From Akkermansia muciniphila (lineage in GTDB: Bacteria > Verrucomicrobiota > Verrucomicrobiia > Verrucomicrobiales > Akkermansiaceae): a stretch of DNA of 64,000 nt. The stretch lies in NCBI RefSeq assembly GCF_018709685.1, contig NZ_JABDHQ010000002.1, positions 62,001 through 126,000 of the forward strand, given 5' to 3'. The notes under the pieces are model-generated. The model was not told where the DNA came from. It was given only the letters and a program-made list of their open reading frames with translations, and made no database searches. This document shows, one piece after another, positions 20,272-62,734 of this stretch (position 1 is the stretch's first letter; each line of letters starts with the position of its first letter). The position numbers were made by a program, and so were the translations under genes.

Positions 20272-21069
20272 TCAGTCCCGTTTCCTTTTTCTGCGTCGTC
20301 CCTCGTGATTGGCGGTTTCCCCGTTCATGCGCTGCTGGAGGCGCAGTTTCCACTGGGGCACCTTCCCCTCCGCCTTGGCCGCGTGAAAGCCCTTCCCCTC
20401 CCGGCCTTTTTCCCTCCACGCGTGTTCTTCCTGGGCTTCCAGCCTTTCCCGGCGCCGCTGTTCCTGAATCTCCGCCAATTTCCTGGCCCGGCGGATTTCC
20501 ACCCGCTTGCTTACCTCCCCATGGGCTGACGTCACGCGCCAGGGGCCGATGCGGTGGGGATACGTGATGGGCGCGCAGATCAGCTCCGCGTCCAGAAAAC
20601 GCATGGAGGCCACCAGCAGATTCTTGACGTTCGCCAGCAAGCCGCCGTCCGTCCAGACGCCGCCCATGCCCATTTCCAGGAGAAAAGCCAGGTGAAGCGT
20701 TTCCGCCTCCGAGGCCAGGATGGAAAAATCCCTCAGGGAGACTCCCTCCGCCGGCTCTTCATCCGGAGCGGCTACGGAAGCGGCCCGGAGCAGGAACAGC
20801 GTATCCCTGACCTTGCGGCTCAGGGCGCAGACCAGTTCCCCCACCTTGGGCCGGGCGTCAAAGCGGTAATCCTTCACCTCCACCAGCCACAGGTCCCGGC
20901 GGCCCGGATGGTACAGCAGGAAGTCCATCTCCTTGCATCCTCCGCAGAAATTCTGCGCCTGCCGGGAATAATAGTCCGAGCACTCAATGCGGCACACGAT
21001 GTAGCCTTCATCGATCCAGAAACGGTGGACTCCCTCCACGTAATGAGCTTCTGACGGCTTATGACTCAT
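20272..21069 (-). CDS. PD-(D/E)XK nuclease-like protein, paired with an AAA ATPase
   Basis: A 265-residue protein I do not recognise as a named family, but residues 47-67 show a PD-(D/E)XK nuclease core: E47-x-D49 at the end of one strand and E64-V-K66 in the next ('WLVEVKDY'), with an upstream helix bearing acidic residues. Tandem cysteines (C42, C45) just before the core could hold a metal. From about residue 185 the protein is strongly basic and probably helical (many Arg/Lys/Glu), ending in RRRKRKRD, which would suit nucleic-acid binding. The ATG lies 11 nt inside the upstream ATPase gene, so the two are co-translated and probably act together. A restriction or abortive-infection nuclease is plausible; a housekeeping repair role cannot be excluded. 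Confidence 0.72.
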   Translation of the reverse strand: MSHKPSEAHYVEGVHRFWIDEGYIVCRIECSDYYSRQAQNFCGGCKEMDFLLYHPGRRDLWLVEVKDYRFDARPKVGELVCALSRKVRDTLFLLRAASVAAPDEEPAEGVSLRDFSILASEAETLHLAFLLEMGMGGVWTDGGLLANVKNLLVASMRFLDAELICAPITYPHRIGPWRVTSAHGEVSKRVEIRRARKLAEIQEQRRRERLEAQEEHAWREKGREGKGFHAAKAEGKVPQWKLRLQQRMNGETANHEGRRRKRKRD

Positions 21070-22135
21070 AGCTCAGCTTCAAGTACCTGTCCGCCTGCTC
21101 GATTTCCGCTTCAAGAGACTCGATAGGCCCCACATCCTCCAGGGATTCCCCCCAGGACACCCTTACCCCGGAGCGGTCTCCCCGCGGAACGCTCATCCCG
21201 AAAAACTTCCTCTGCACCATCGCGTTGCGCGGCTCGGACAACTGAATCATCAGCTCCCGCAGCAGGAACAGGCTGTGGGAGGACAGAATCACCTGCACCC
21301 CCGTTTTGGCAAGCCCCGTCAGGGTTTTCACCAGCACGGGCAGATGGGAGGCGTTCAGGTTCATTTCCGGCTCATCCCAGAACAGCACGGAGCCTCTCTT
21401 CACGGACCCGTTACGGATCAGGTAGCTCAGCGTGCCCAGCCTTTTGAAGCCTTCCGCCACCAGGCTCATCTCAATGGGCTCCTGGCCGGGGCGCTGAAGG
21501 AAAAACCGCCCATCACGCTTCACCACCTGCCCGCCGATGATCTTTTCCAGCCTGGCGACCACGCGCCCGGCGTCCGTGCTGATGGGCTGCGCCGCCGCAT
21601 CCGCATCCAGGTAGCGGCAGAGGTCCCAGCTTCCGCCGTCCAGAAACTCGGGAAACCTGCTTCCCACCTGCACGAAACTGGGATAAATGGTCAGCACCTC
21701 CCGCGCCGCCAGGAACACCACCGGCACGTTCAGGAAGCGCAGGGGCATCTCCTGAATGGTCAGCCCCTCCTCCTCATGCCCGGCCTTGAAATCAAACACC
21801 AGGTTCCCCATGCCCTCCGGCACGCCTTCCCCTTCCATGGAGGCCTCCACATGGGCGTGGGCGTTGCCGCGGTTCCGGGCGGTCAGTCCGGCCAGGCCGC
21901 GGGACGCAAACACCCGCATCAGGTCCTTCCGGAGCCTCTGCTCCTCCGCCCACTTCTCCGGCAGGGACTTCCTGCCCCCGTCCGCGCTCCATTTGGCCAC
22001 GGTATAGCACAGCTTCAGCAGATGGCTCTTGCCGGAATCATTGCCGCCCACCACCACATTGATTCCCGGAACAAACTCAAAATGTTCGCTCCCGGGAAAC
22101 ACCGTCACGCCGCTCACCAGTAGGTCATGTATCAT
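21059..22135 (-). CDS. AAA (ABC-like, AAA_15/AAA_21 type) ATPase, paired with nuclease
   Basis: A 358-residue SMC/RecF-like P-loop ATPase. Walker A is G30-GNDS-G35-K36-S37, a signature-like helix is 'SLVAEGFKRLGTL' near 222-234, and Walker B is 'VLFWDEPEMNLN' with D252-E253. The switch region is 'ILSSHSLFLL' with H285. This single-domain ABC-ATPase plan, without a long coiled coil, is that of the AAA_15/AAA_21 and OLD-like proteins found in Septu, PARIS, Gabija and retron defence modules. The ATG at 22135 sits directly before the first strand; the frame is open to 22495 but overlaps the divergent menB region without coding character. Base composition matches its neighbours. Partner: the overlapping nuclease-like gene. 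Confidence 0.82.
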   Translation of the reverse strand: MIHDLLVSGVTVFPGSEHFEFVPGINVVVGGNDSGKSHLLKLCYTVAKWSADGGRKSLPEKWAEEQRLRKDLMRVFASRGLAGLTARNRGNAHAHVEASMEGEGVPEGMGNLVFDFKAGHEEEGLTIQEMPLRFLNVPVVFLAAREVLTIYPSFVQVGSRFPEFLDGGSWDLCRYLDADAAAQPISTDAGRVVARLEKIIGGQVVKRDGRFFLQRPGQEPIEMSLVAEGFKRLGTLSYLIRNGSVKRGSVLFWDEPEMNLNASHLPVLVKTLTGLAKTGVQVILSSHSLFLLRELMIQLSEPRNAMVQRKFFGMSVPRGDRSGVRVSWGESLEDVGPIESLEAEIEQADRYLKLSYES

Positions 22136-24079: not shown

Positions 24080-24658
24080 GTGAAAAAGACGCCACAATGC
24101 CATATCGTCGCAGGTCCGAATGGAGCAGGAAAAACTACGTTTGCCTTGGATTACCTGATGCATGAAACAAATTGCCGGGCATTTATCAACGCGGACATGA
24201 TCGCCCAGGGCCTTTCGCCTCTTGCTCCGCAATCGGTCCAGGTCAAGGCAGGGAAATTGTTTTTGGAAGAATTGAAAAGGCATCTGAAACAAAAAGAGAG
24301 CTTCTGTTTTGAAACTACTCTTTCGGGCTCTTCCTATCTGCAAAAAATCAACCAGTGGAGAAAAGACGGCTGGCATGTGATTCTTCATTATCTCTGGATA
24401 CCGAATGCACAATTTTCCGCTTTACGCGTGCAGGAACGTGTAGCTCAGGGAGGGCATGACATTCCTCATAAGGCCATTTTAAGACGCTATGATAAAAGCC
24501 TGCGCAATTTATTCAATTATCTCCCCATATGCAATGAAGTAATGTGCTACGATAATTCAGACGTAAATCATCCCCTCATTTTCACCATGGCAAGAGGAAA
24601 GATTGAAGTCATCAATGCACCCCTGTATAAAAGCATTCAACAGAAAACCTGTCCATGA
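24080..24658 (+). CDS. Zeta-toxin-like P-loop kinase (COG4185 type)
   Basis: A 192-residue kinase of the zeta-toxin superfamily, starting at GTG 24080. Walker A is 'GPNGAGKTT' (G12-K18-T19). The substrate loop is 'FINADMIAQGLSP' with D39. 'CFETTLSG' carries E78. The family's basic block 'RVQERVAQGGHDIP' (117-129) and 'RRYDKSLRNLF' is intact. Zeta toxins phosphorylate UDP-N-acetylglucosamine; whether this subfamily does the same is not known from sequence. The region is clearly more AT-rich than its neighbours, suggesting transfer. Its stop overlaps the start of a 74-residue gene (ATGA), the order being toxin then partner, the reverse of classical epsilon-zeta. Confidence 0.85.
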   Translation: MKKTPQCHIVAGPNGAGKTTFALDYLMHETNCRAFINADMIAQGLSPLAPQSVQVKAGKLFLEELKRHLKQKESFCFETTLSGSSYLQKINQWRKDGWHVILHYLWIPNAQFSALRVQERVAQGGHDIPHKAILRRYDKSLRNLFNYLPICNEVMCYDNSDVNHPLIFTMARGKIEVINAPLYKSIQQKTCP

Positions 24659-60601: not shown

Positions 60602-62734
60602 ATGAGTGACTCTACCAGAACACAAGCCATCAGCGCCATCGCCTCCCTGCCCGTGAGCGGGGTGAGCGAGAGCGCCCCTGTCAGCATTGATTATTACGGC
60701 GCCGACGTTTTCAGCACGGAGGTGATGAAGCAGTACCTGCCCAAGGATACGGCCAAGGCCCTTCTGGCTACCATCCAGGACGGCCTGCCTCTGAACGCGG
60801 ACATCGCCGCGGATGTGGCCCATGCCATGAAGCAGTGGGCCCTGGAACGGGGGGCCACCCATTACACCCACTGGTTCCAGCCCATGACGGGCTCCACGGC
60901 GGAAAAGCATGATTCCTTCCTGGACCCCCGGGGCATGGAGGCCATCATGAGCTTTTCAGGCAAGAACCTGATCGTGAGCGAGCCGGACGCGTCCAGCTTC
61001 CCTTCCGGTGGCCTGCGCTGCACGTTTGAGGCCCGCGGCTATACCGCATGGGACCCCACCAGCCCCGCGTTCATCAAGCGCCACGGCAACGGAGCCACCC
61101 TGTGCATCCCCACCGCCTATTGTTCCTACACGGGAGACGCCCTGGACAAGAAGACCCCCCTGCTCCGTTCCCGGCAGGCGCTGAGCAACGCCGCCAGAAG
61201 GCTGATGAAGTGCTTCAACCTGCCGGATTCCCGCGTGACCATCACGCTAGGAGCGGAACAGGAGTATTTCCTGATTGACAAGAATTTTTACCTGAACCGC
61301 CCGGACCTGGTCCAGACGGGACGCACCCTGTTCGGCGCGCCGCCCGCCAAGCACCAGCAGCTGGAAGACCACTACTTCGGCTCCATCAAGCCCCGCATCC
61401 TGAATTTCATGAATGATGTGGAAACGGAACTCTGGCGGCTGGGCATTCCTGCCAAGACGCGCCACAATGAGGTGGCTCCGGCCCAGTTTGAGCTGGCCCC
61501 CCTGTTTGAGGACGTGAACCTGGCGATTGACCACAATATGCTGGTGATGGAAATCCTGCGCCAGCAGGCCAGCAGGCACGGCCTGGTATGCCTGCTCCAT
61601 GAAAAGCCCTTTGTGGGCGTCAACGGCTCCGGCAAGCATAATAACTGGTCCATCTCCTACGGGGACAAGAACCTGCTGGACCCCGGCACGGACCCGCAGC
61701 AGAATGCCATTTTCCTGACGGTGCTGACCGCCATTATTGAAGCCGTGGACAAGCACAGCGACCTGCTCCGGACTTCCGTAGCCAGCGCCGGGAATGACCA
61801 CCGCCTGGGCGCGAACGAGGCGCCACCCGCCATTGTTTCCATTTTCCTGGGCGACCAGCTCAATGAGGTGATTGAGAATATCATCAACGGGGAAGCCGGA
61901 TGCGGCCGGCGGAATGACACGCTCAAGATCGGCGTGGATACGCTGCCCGTCCTGCCCAGGGACGCCACGGACCGCAACCGCACCAGCCCGTTCGCCTTCA
62001 CCGGGAACAAGTTCGAGTTCCGCGCGCCCGGTTCCGCCCAGTCCTGCGCCGGGCCCATGATTACCCTGAACACCATCGTGGCGGAGGCCTTCGATTCCCT
62101 GGCGGAAGAACTTTCCTCCTTCGCACCGGAGACTTTCCTGGCCCAGCTTCAGGAAACGCTCAAGCGCCGGATATCCGAACACAGGAGGATCATTTTCAAC
62201 GGAGACAATTATTCCGGGGAATGGGTGAAGGAGGCGGAACGCCGCGGCCTGCCCAACCTGAAGAATACGATGAGTGCCCTCCATACTCTGGTTAATGAAA
62301 AGAACGTGGCCCTGTTTGAGAAGTACGGCGTGTTTTCCAGAAGGGAGCTGGAATCCCGGTTTGAGATTTTCCTGGAGGAATACCACAGGCGCATCCGCAT
62401 TGAAGGGCGCCTGTCCTGGGAAATGGCCGCCACCATTATCCTCCCGGCCTTGCGCAATGAATACAAGCAAACCGTTTCCGCGCTTTCCAGGGCGCTGGAC
62501 GCCAAGCAGACCACCGGCACCGTCTCCCTGCGGAAGCTGGCGGACAAGCTGGGCGACGCCCTGGATTCCATCGTGTCCGACCTGGATACGCTGGAAACGG
62601 CGCTCACGAGCTGCCATGAGGACATCCTTGCCGGGATGTCCCGATTGAGAACCAGCGTCGACGCAGCAGAAGCCCTGGTGAACGACCGGTCCTGGCCTCT
62701 CCCCAAGTACCGGGAAATGCTGTTCATCTATTAG
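60602..62734 (+). CDS. glnN: Glutamine synthetase type III
   Basis: A 710-residue GSIII (type I is about 470). The N-terminal GSIII domain, 'GATHYTHWFQPMTGSTAEKHDSF', is diagnostic, as are 'GAEQEYFLID' (catalytic Glu), 'RHNEVAPAQFELAPLFEDVN', 'GSGKHNNWSISYG' and 'APPAIVSIFLGDQL'. The C-terminal domain is helical. It makes glutamine from glutamate and ammonia. The sigma-54 promoter and shared upstream sites indicate nitrogen-limitation control together with gltB. This is the type found in Bacteroidota and Verrucomicrobiota. Confidence 0.96.
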   Translation: MSDSTRTQAISAIASLPVSGVSESAPVSIDYYGADVFSTEVMKQYLPKDTAKALLATIQDGLPLNADIAADVAHAMKQWALERGATHYTHWFQPMTGSTAEKHDSFLDPRGMEAIMSFSGKNLIVSEPDASSFPSGGLRCTFEARGYTAWDPTSPAFIKRHGNGATLCIPTAYCSYTGDALDKKTPLLRSRQALSNAARRLMKCFNLPDSRVTITLGAEQEYFLIDKNFYLNRPDLVQTGRTLFGAPPAKHQQLEDHYFGSIKPRILNFMNDVETELWRLGIPAKTRHNEVAPAQFELAPLFEDVNLAIDHNMLVMEILRQQASRHGLVCLLHEKPFVGVNGSGKHNNWSISYGDKNLLDPGTDPQQNAIFLTVLTAIIEAVDKHSDLLRTSVASAGNDHRLGANEAPPAIVSIFLGDQLNEVIENIINGEAGCGRRNDTLKIGVDTLPVLPRDATDRNRTSPFAFTGNKFEFRAPGSAQSCAGPMITLNTIVAEAFDSLAEELSSFAPETFLAQLQETLKRRISEHRRIIFNGDNYSGEWVKEAERRGLPNLKNTMSALHTLVNEKNVALFEKYGVFSRRELESRFEIFLEEYHRRIRIEGRLSWEMAATIILPALRNEYKQTVSALSRALDAKQTTGTVSLRKLADKLGDALDSIVSDLDTLETALTSCHEDILAGMSRLRTSVDAAEALVNDRSWPLPKYREMLFIY

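Follow-up and report, generated by a model that had tools for sequence, protein, structure and literature searches.

Akkermansia species almost without exception carry a fixed, lineage-specific version of a two-gene kit that is normally patchy in its distribution, consisting of an ATPase gene and a nuclease gene to whose product a basic tail has been added. The pair was analysed in a window of 64,000 nucleotides of Akkermansia muciniphila DNA (positions 62,001 to 126,000 of contig NZ_JABDHQ010000002.1). By their matches to sequence models, both proteins belong to the candidate system HEC-02 of PADLOC-DB v2.0.0. With a probability of roughly 55%, the Akkermansia pair is a chromosomally fixed variant of HEC-02 with a role in defence, in which the ATPase would sense abnormal DNA and license the nuclease.

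The gene pair and its family

Both genes lie on the reverse strand of the window, the gene of the ABC/OLD-type HEC-02 ATPase (358 aa; 21059..22135) first and that of the predicted PD-(D/E)XK-class HEC-02 nuclease (265 aa; 20272..21069) second, and their reading frames overlap by 11 nt (21059..21069, reverse strand), exactly as the first-pass annotation had placed them. That annotation had considered the module undescribed, which must be revised because both genes match HEC-02 models and dyads of ABC-ATPases and PD-(D/E)XK nucleases are on record (PMC12839542). HEC denotes Hma-embedded candidate (doi 10.1101/2024.01.29.577857, as cited in PMC12988326), and some HEC candidates show antiviral activity (PMC12988326). 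According to a 2026 survey of BREX, OLD-ABC ATPases and PD-(D/E)XK-REases form pairs that serve BREX loci as backup effectors (PMC12839542). No published test of HEC-02 function or mechanism was found in the literature searched, which makes the single-copy, stand-alone version of Akkermansia convenient for study.

At least 494 relatives came up when a large genome collection was searched with an ATPase alignment, and the best 80 were checked for pairing. A nuclease gene lies directly 3' of the ATPase gene in 77 of these best 80, in the same order as in the window and mostly with a 4-nt overlap, and the spread, judged by record titles, takes in at least ten phyla; such pairing marks an established, widespread gene dyad. 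HEC-02 is patchy in an unrelated family of the same phylum (3 of 29 genomes), and relatives occur in two unannotated faecal phage records and in a few viral contigs. The HEC-02 ATPase gene of the Sulfuricystis plasmid pSTJ2 has no annotated nuclease gene behind it, the next gene being an N-6 DNA methylase on the other strand.

Strong purifying selection acts on both genes of the Akkermansia pair, with dN/dS ratios between related genomes of approximately 0.01-0.11 for the nuclease core and 0.03-0.22 for the ATPase. These low ratios, and the retention of the pair in tens of related genomes, show that the arrangement is not due to chance. The ATPase and the nuclease are an obligate pair with intact active-site residues, kept by selection. 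A scan for promoters and terminators at the pair gave nothing informative.

Distribution and inheritance in Akkermansia

The ATPase model matches 72 of 76 Akkermansia genomes, and the genus-type ATPase is present in approximately 69 of the 76, a count that omits the weak matches in genomes G029 and G445 as well as G035, whose only HEC-02 is of a different, tailless type. Among near-complete genomes the genus-type pair is found in 53 of 55, the exceptions being G028 (98% complete) and G031 (93%). The nuclease, followed separately, is present as a single copy in 32 of 36 Akkermansia genomes; it was not seen in the order-level relatives compared alongside them, nor in the listed genomes from other genera of the same family. 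Tailless HEC-02 occurs in only three of the 76 Akkermansia genomes and in one further record (L194). These tailless copies (L211/L301 in G035, L300 in G461, and those of G453 and L194) are unrelated to the genus-type clade and fall outside it.

All sampled genus-type ATPases form one clade, joined to other HEC-02 by a long stem of approximately 1.2 substitutions per site. The tree of the pair has 15 of 21 splits in common with that of FtsH and MutS combined, with no well-supported conflict, and the separate trees of FtsH and MutS likewise have 15 of 21 splits in common. Nuclease distances, taken pair by pair, track those of FtsH (correlation 0.925) and MutS (0.929), and the mean p-distance of the nuclease core is 0.257 versus 0.246 for MutS; the ATPase evolves faster than either FtsH or MutS. 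The single clade on its long stem and the agreement with FtsH and MutS suggest that the pair was acquired once, long ago, and has since been passed on vertically and occasionally lost.

Near-fixation and vertical inheritance give serious weight to a rival explanation, namely that a former HEC-02 defence pair was domesticated and is now a genome-maintenance enzyme of Akkermansia, acting on DNA ends or on branched or damaged DNA. Such a role would account for the near-core status of the pair, its vertical descent and its new tail, and it is consistent with the frequency of the pair in all and in near-complete genomes, the agreement of its tree with FtsH and MutS, a nuclease core about as slow as MutS, and the contrasting rarity of tailless HEC-02. 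However, the absence of the pair from the near-complete genomes G028 and G031 indicates that it is dispensable, and the faster evolution of the ATPase also tells against this explanation, which is possible but on balance rather improbable.

The ATPase

The ATPase matches the PADLOC models PDLC04146 (HEC-02B; 2.8e-69, residues 1-354 against positions 1-342 of 344) and PDLC04213 (HEC-02A; 5.9e-60), the Pfam family AAA_21 (3.1e-16) and, among weaker PADLOC matches, AriA (2.5e-16) and other sensor ATPases. The features expected of an ABC/OLD-type ATPase are present: a Walker A motif, GGNDSGKS (residues 30-37; 22025..22048, reverse strand), in which G35 and K36 are invariant; a Walker B motif, FWDE (residues 252-255; 21371..21382, reverse strand), in which D254 and E255 are invariant; a switch histidine, H287 (21275..21277, reverse strand), invariant in 38 family members and present in 27 of 28 Akkermansia proteins; and the head fold. 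The first-pass annotation had located Walker A correctly and had numbered the other two sites two residues too low, as D252-E253 and H285. Its description of a single-domain ABC ATPase agrees with the predicted model (pLDDT 89), for which Foldseek returned an SMC head (5h68, 3.7e-14), PtuA of Septu (8eea, 2.8e-13), retron PtuA and Rad50. Three other HEC-02 ATPases (L129, L130 and L203) bear an extra 110-130 residues, approximately, at the N-terminus.

The nuclease core

The PADLOC model PDLC04145 (HEC-02A) matches the nuclease (1.2e-15, residues 11-105 against positions 6-98 of 170) and 58 of the 59 members of the nuclease family. The putative catalytic residues are D49 (20923..20925, reverse strand), invariant in 58 of 58 distant relatives, and E64 and K66 within E64-V65-K66 (20872..20880, reverse strand), conserved in 58 and 57 of the 58, respectively. 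All three had been proposed beforehand; E47, proposed with them, is conserved within Akkermansia only and is replaced by alanine in 44 of 58 distant relatives, so it is not a position of the catalytic core. The second acidic position that the family conserves is E29, where 55 of 58 relatives have D.

In the predicted model (pLDDT 86), a (helix-)strand-strand-helix core carries D49, E64 and K66 and is followed by long tail helices. Foldseek found no significant match in the PDB for the full nuclease model, the weak ones including Mus81, McrBC and MunI; possibly the helical tail is the cause. Members of the family match the Pfam families NERD (13 of 59, best 1e-5) and pPIWI_RE_REase (four, best 1.8e-4). 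Taken with the motif and the predicted fold, these matches support, though they do not prove, the PD-(D/E)XK class to which the protein had been assigned from the start.

The nuclease itself matched no Pfam family in a Pfam search, as might be expected if the two genes were overlapping reading frames with no joint function, or a degenerate remnant. This idea is refuted by conservation and retains hardly any probability: the pair recurs in nearly all of the distant loci checked and in most Akkermansia genomes, its catalytic residues are intact, and its dN/dS ratios are low.

A genus-specific tail and a candidate metal site

Beyond W177, the window nuclease extends for 88 residues, compared with 3-16 in 58 relatives. 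This C-terminal tail (residues 178-265; 20275..20538, reverse strand), approximately 85 aa long and conserved across Akkermansia copies, is predicted to be helical and is specific to the genus. The strongly basic character noted at first sight is real: the last 82 residues of the window nuclease contain 26 K/R versus 14 D/E, and Akkermansia tails in general approximately 21-27 K/R versus 8-16 D/E. The columns P-x-W-K-x-R-x3-R near the end of the tail are conserved in Akkermansia proteins, and dN/dS ratios of 0.05-0.17, where they could be computed, place the tail under constraint. No homologues of the tail were found in its own genome, and no significant match among solved structures in the PDB. 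In gaining it, the nuclease probably acquired a means of binding nucleic acid or a partner.

Four cysteines, C26, C30, C42 and C45 (C-x3-C-x11-C-x2-C; 20935..20994, reverse strand), are present in 27 of 27 Akkermansia proteins, and the corresponding positions hold cysteine in 2, 0, 10 and 2 of 58 relatives, respectively. They constitute a possible metal site, which the Akkermansia nuclease may have gained along with its tail. In two further genomes from the phylum (L132:8865-9488 and L133:8426-9139), the HEC-02 nuclease has a cysteine-rich insert directly before the catalytic D, near the site of the four Akkermansia cysteines.

A basic tail might also bind RNA or ribosomes, as part of a suicidal or RNA-directed effector in which a PARIS-like sensor ATPase would restrain the nuclease and a phage trigger would release it to attack host DNA or RNA. 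Such an effector would be in keeping with the lower-scoring matches of the ATPase to AriA and other sensor ATPases, and with the report that stand-alone nucleases linked to OLD-ABC are likely suicidal backups (PMC12839542). Yet the PD-(D/E)XK/NERD-like core suggests DNA as the target, the tail matches no solved structure significantly, and fixation of a lethal effector across a genus would be unusual, all of which make this explanation doubtful. A defence nuclease directed at DNA by its ATPase is preferred.

Genomic neighbourhood

In three close species, and in no others of those compared, the pair is flanked by ftsH and an enoyl-CoA hydratase/menB-like gene. A stable operon link with ftsH was considered and rejected, because the pair adjoins ftsH in only three compared genomes although ftsH and rsfS are linked in 30 of 30. 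The position of the pair shifts between Akkermansia species, and its neighbours are housekeeping genes. Among 88 neighbours of Akkermansia copies, PADLOC and Pfam scans detected no enrichment in defence genes; at a threshold of 1e-20 only a few match PADLOC, some of them generically, and an explanation of these copies as parts of defence islands is unsupported. The housekeeping neighbours would suit domestication as a genome-maintenance enzyme, but the shifting position of the pair, set beside so constant a linkage as ftsH-rsfS, would not.

Elsewhere in the family, roughly 7 of 93 immediate neighbours of distant HEC-02 match defence models, a number of distinct proteins estimated from the family list in an underpowered set of two genes per side with crude gene calls by longest ORF. 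The strongest link to defence is on the Methylomonas plasmid pLM6, where a HEC-02 pair is located inside a BREX operon, between brxC and pglX, although the nuclease of this pair belongs to another HEC-02 subtype. Further HEC-02 copies on plasmids are near methylase or type ISP restriction-modification genes. The first-pass annotation had set against its own proposal the prospect of a pair fixed in its relatives with no link to defence islands. Such is the situation within Akkermansia, where the pair is near-fixed among housekeeping genes, but not in the HEC-02 family, which is patchy, present on plasmids and in one instance embedded in BREX.

Two other observations were made in the vicinity. 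A Zeta-toxin-like kinase gene (24080-24658 of the window, forward strand; Pfam Zeta_toxin, 1.1e-6) is absent from the same place in G017, a close relative, and seems to be broken into two parts in G004; it is therefore accessory. The ftsH gene of G004 (L063) has an apparent frame-shift near its 3' end, which could be a sequencing error.

Probable function

Judged by its family, defence is the leading candidate for the role of the pair. It is favoured by the HEC-02 matches, the BREX-embedded and plasmid-borne pairs, the patchiness of the family elsewhere and the PtuA-like fold of the ATPase. It is weakened by the lack of defence enrichment beside Akkermansia copies, by an association with defence genes that is only weak in the distant sample, and by the different nuclease subtype of the BREX-embedded pair. 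Near-fixation in a genus, which is atypical of defence systems, also counts against it; modules for defence tend to come and go rapidly.

The module was probably gained once by the common ancestor of Akkermansia and is now a near-core chromosomal pair, inherited vertically. By analogy with related families, the ATPase would dimerise on ATP; the dimer may sense or clamp nucleic acid in an abnormal state, for instance incoming or damaged DNA, and would then position or license the nuclease for cleavage of DNA. Protection against phages or other mobile DNA would be the most likely purpose. It may tentatively be suggested instead that a mobile HEC-02 was domesticated once to become a near-core complex for genome maintenance or the control of DNA uptake, retargeted by its new tail and metal site. 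A module of a defence class that is near-universal, vertically inherited and structurally elaborated in Akkermansia offers a natural test of domestication versus stably kept immunity.

Comparison with known systems

The ATPase fold resembles PtuA of Septu, but Septu was rejected as an identification: the partner has no HNH match and is a HEC-02 nuclease, apparently of PD-(D/E)XK type, rather than PtuB. PARIS likewise combines an ABC-type sensor ATPase (AriA) with a nuclease, but was rejected because the partner has no TOPRIM match, as AriB would, and the HEC-02 models score far higher than AriA on the ATPase. Gabija, with its ATPase-TOPRIM fusion and the helicase GajB, was also rejected, the window ATPase being single-domain and its partner not a helicase. 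The head fold is shared with Rad50 and SMC proteins, from which the window ATPase differs in having neither a long coiled coil nor an Mre11-type phosphoesterase as partner.

By description, the OLD-ABC/PD-(D/E)XK-REase dyads of BREX loci (PMC12839542) are the same kind of gene pair, and one HEC-02 pair is itself embedded in BREX, whereas the copy in the window stands alone, with neither BREX nor restriction-modification genes as neighbours. HEC-02 has the same two-gene operon of an ATPase and a small nuclease, and its models match both proteins. From other members of HEC-02, most of which lack these features, the window nuclease is distinguished by its long basic tail and its four cysteines, and the Akkermansia copies are distinguished by being genus-fixed and vertically inherited in a family that is otherwise patchy.
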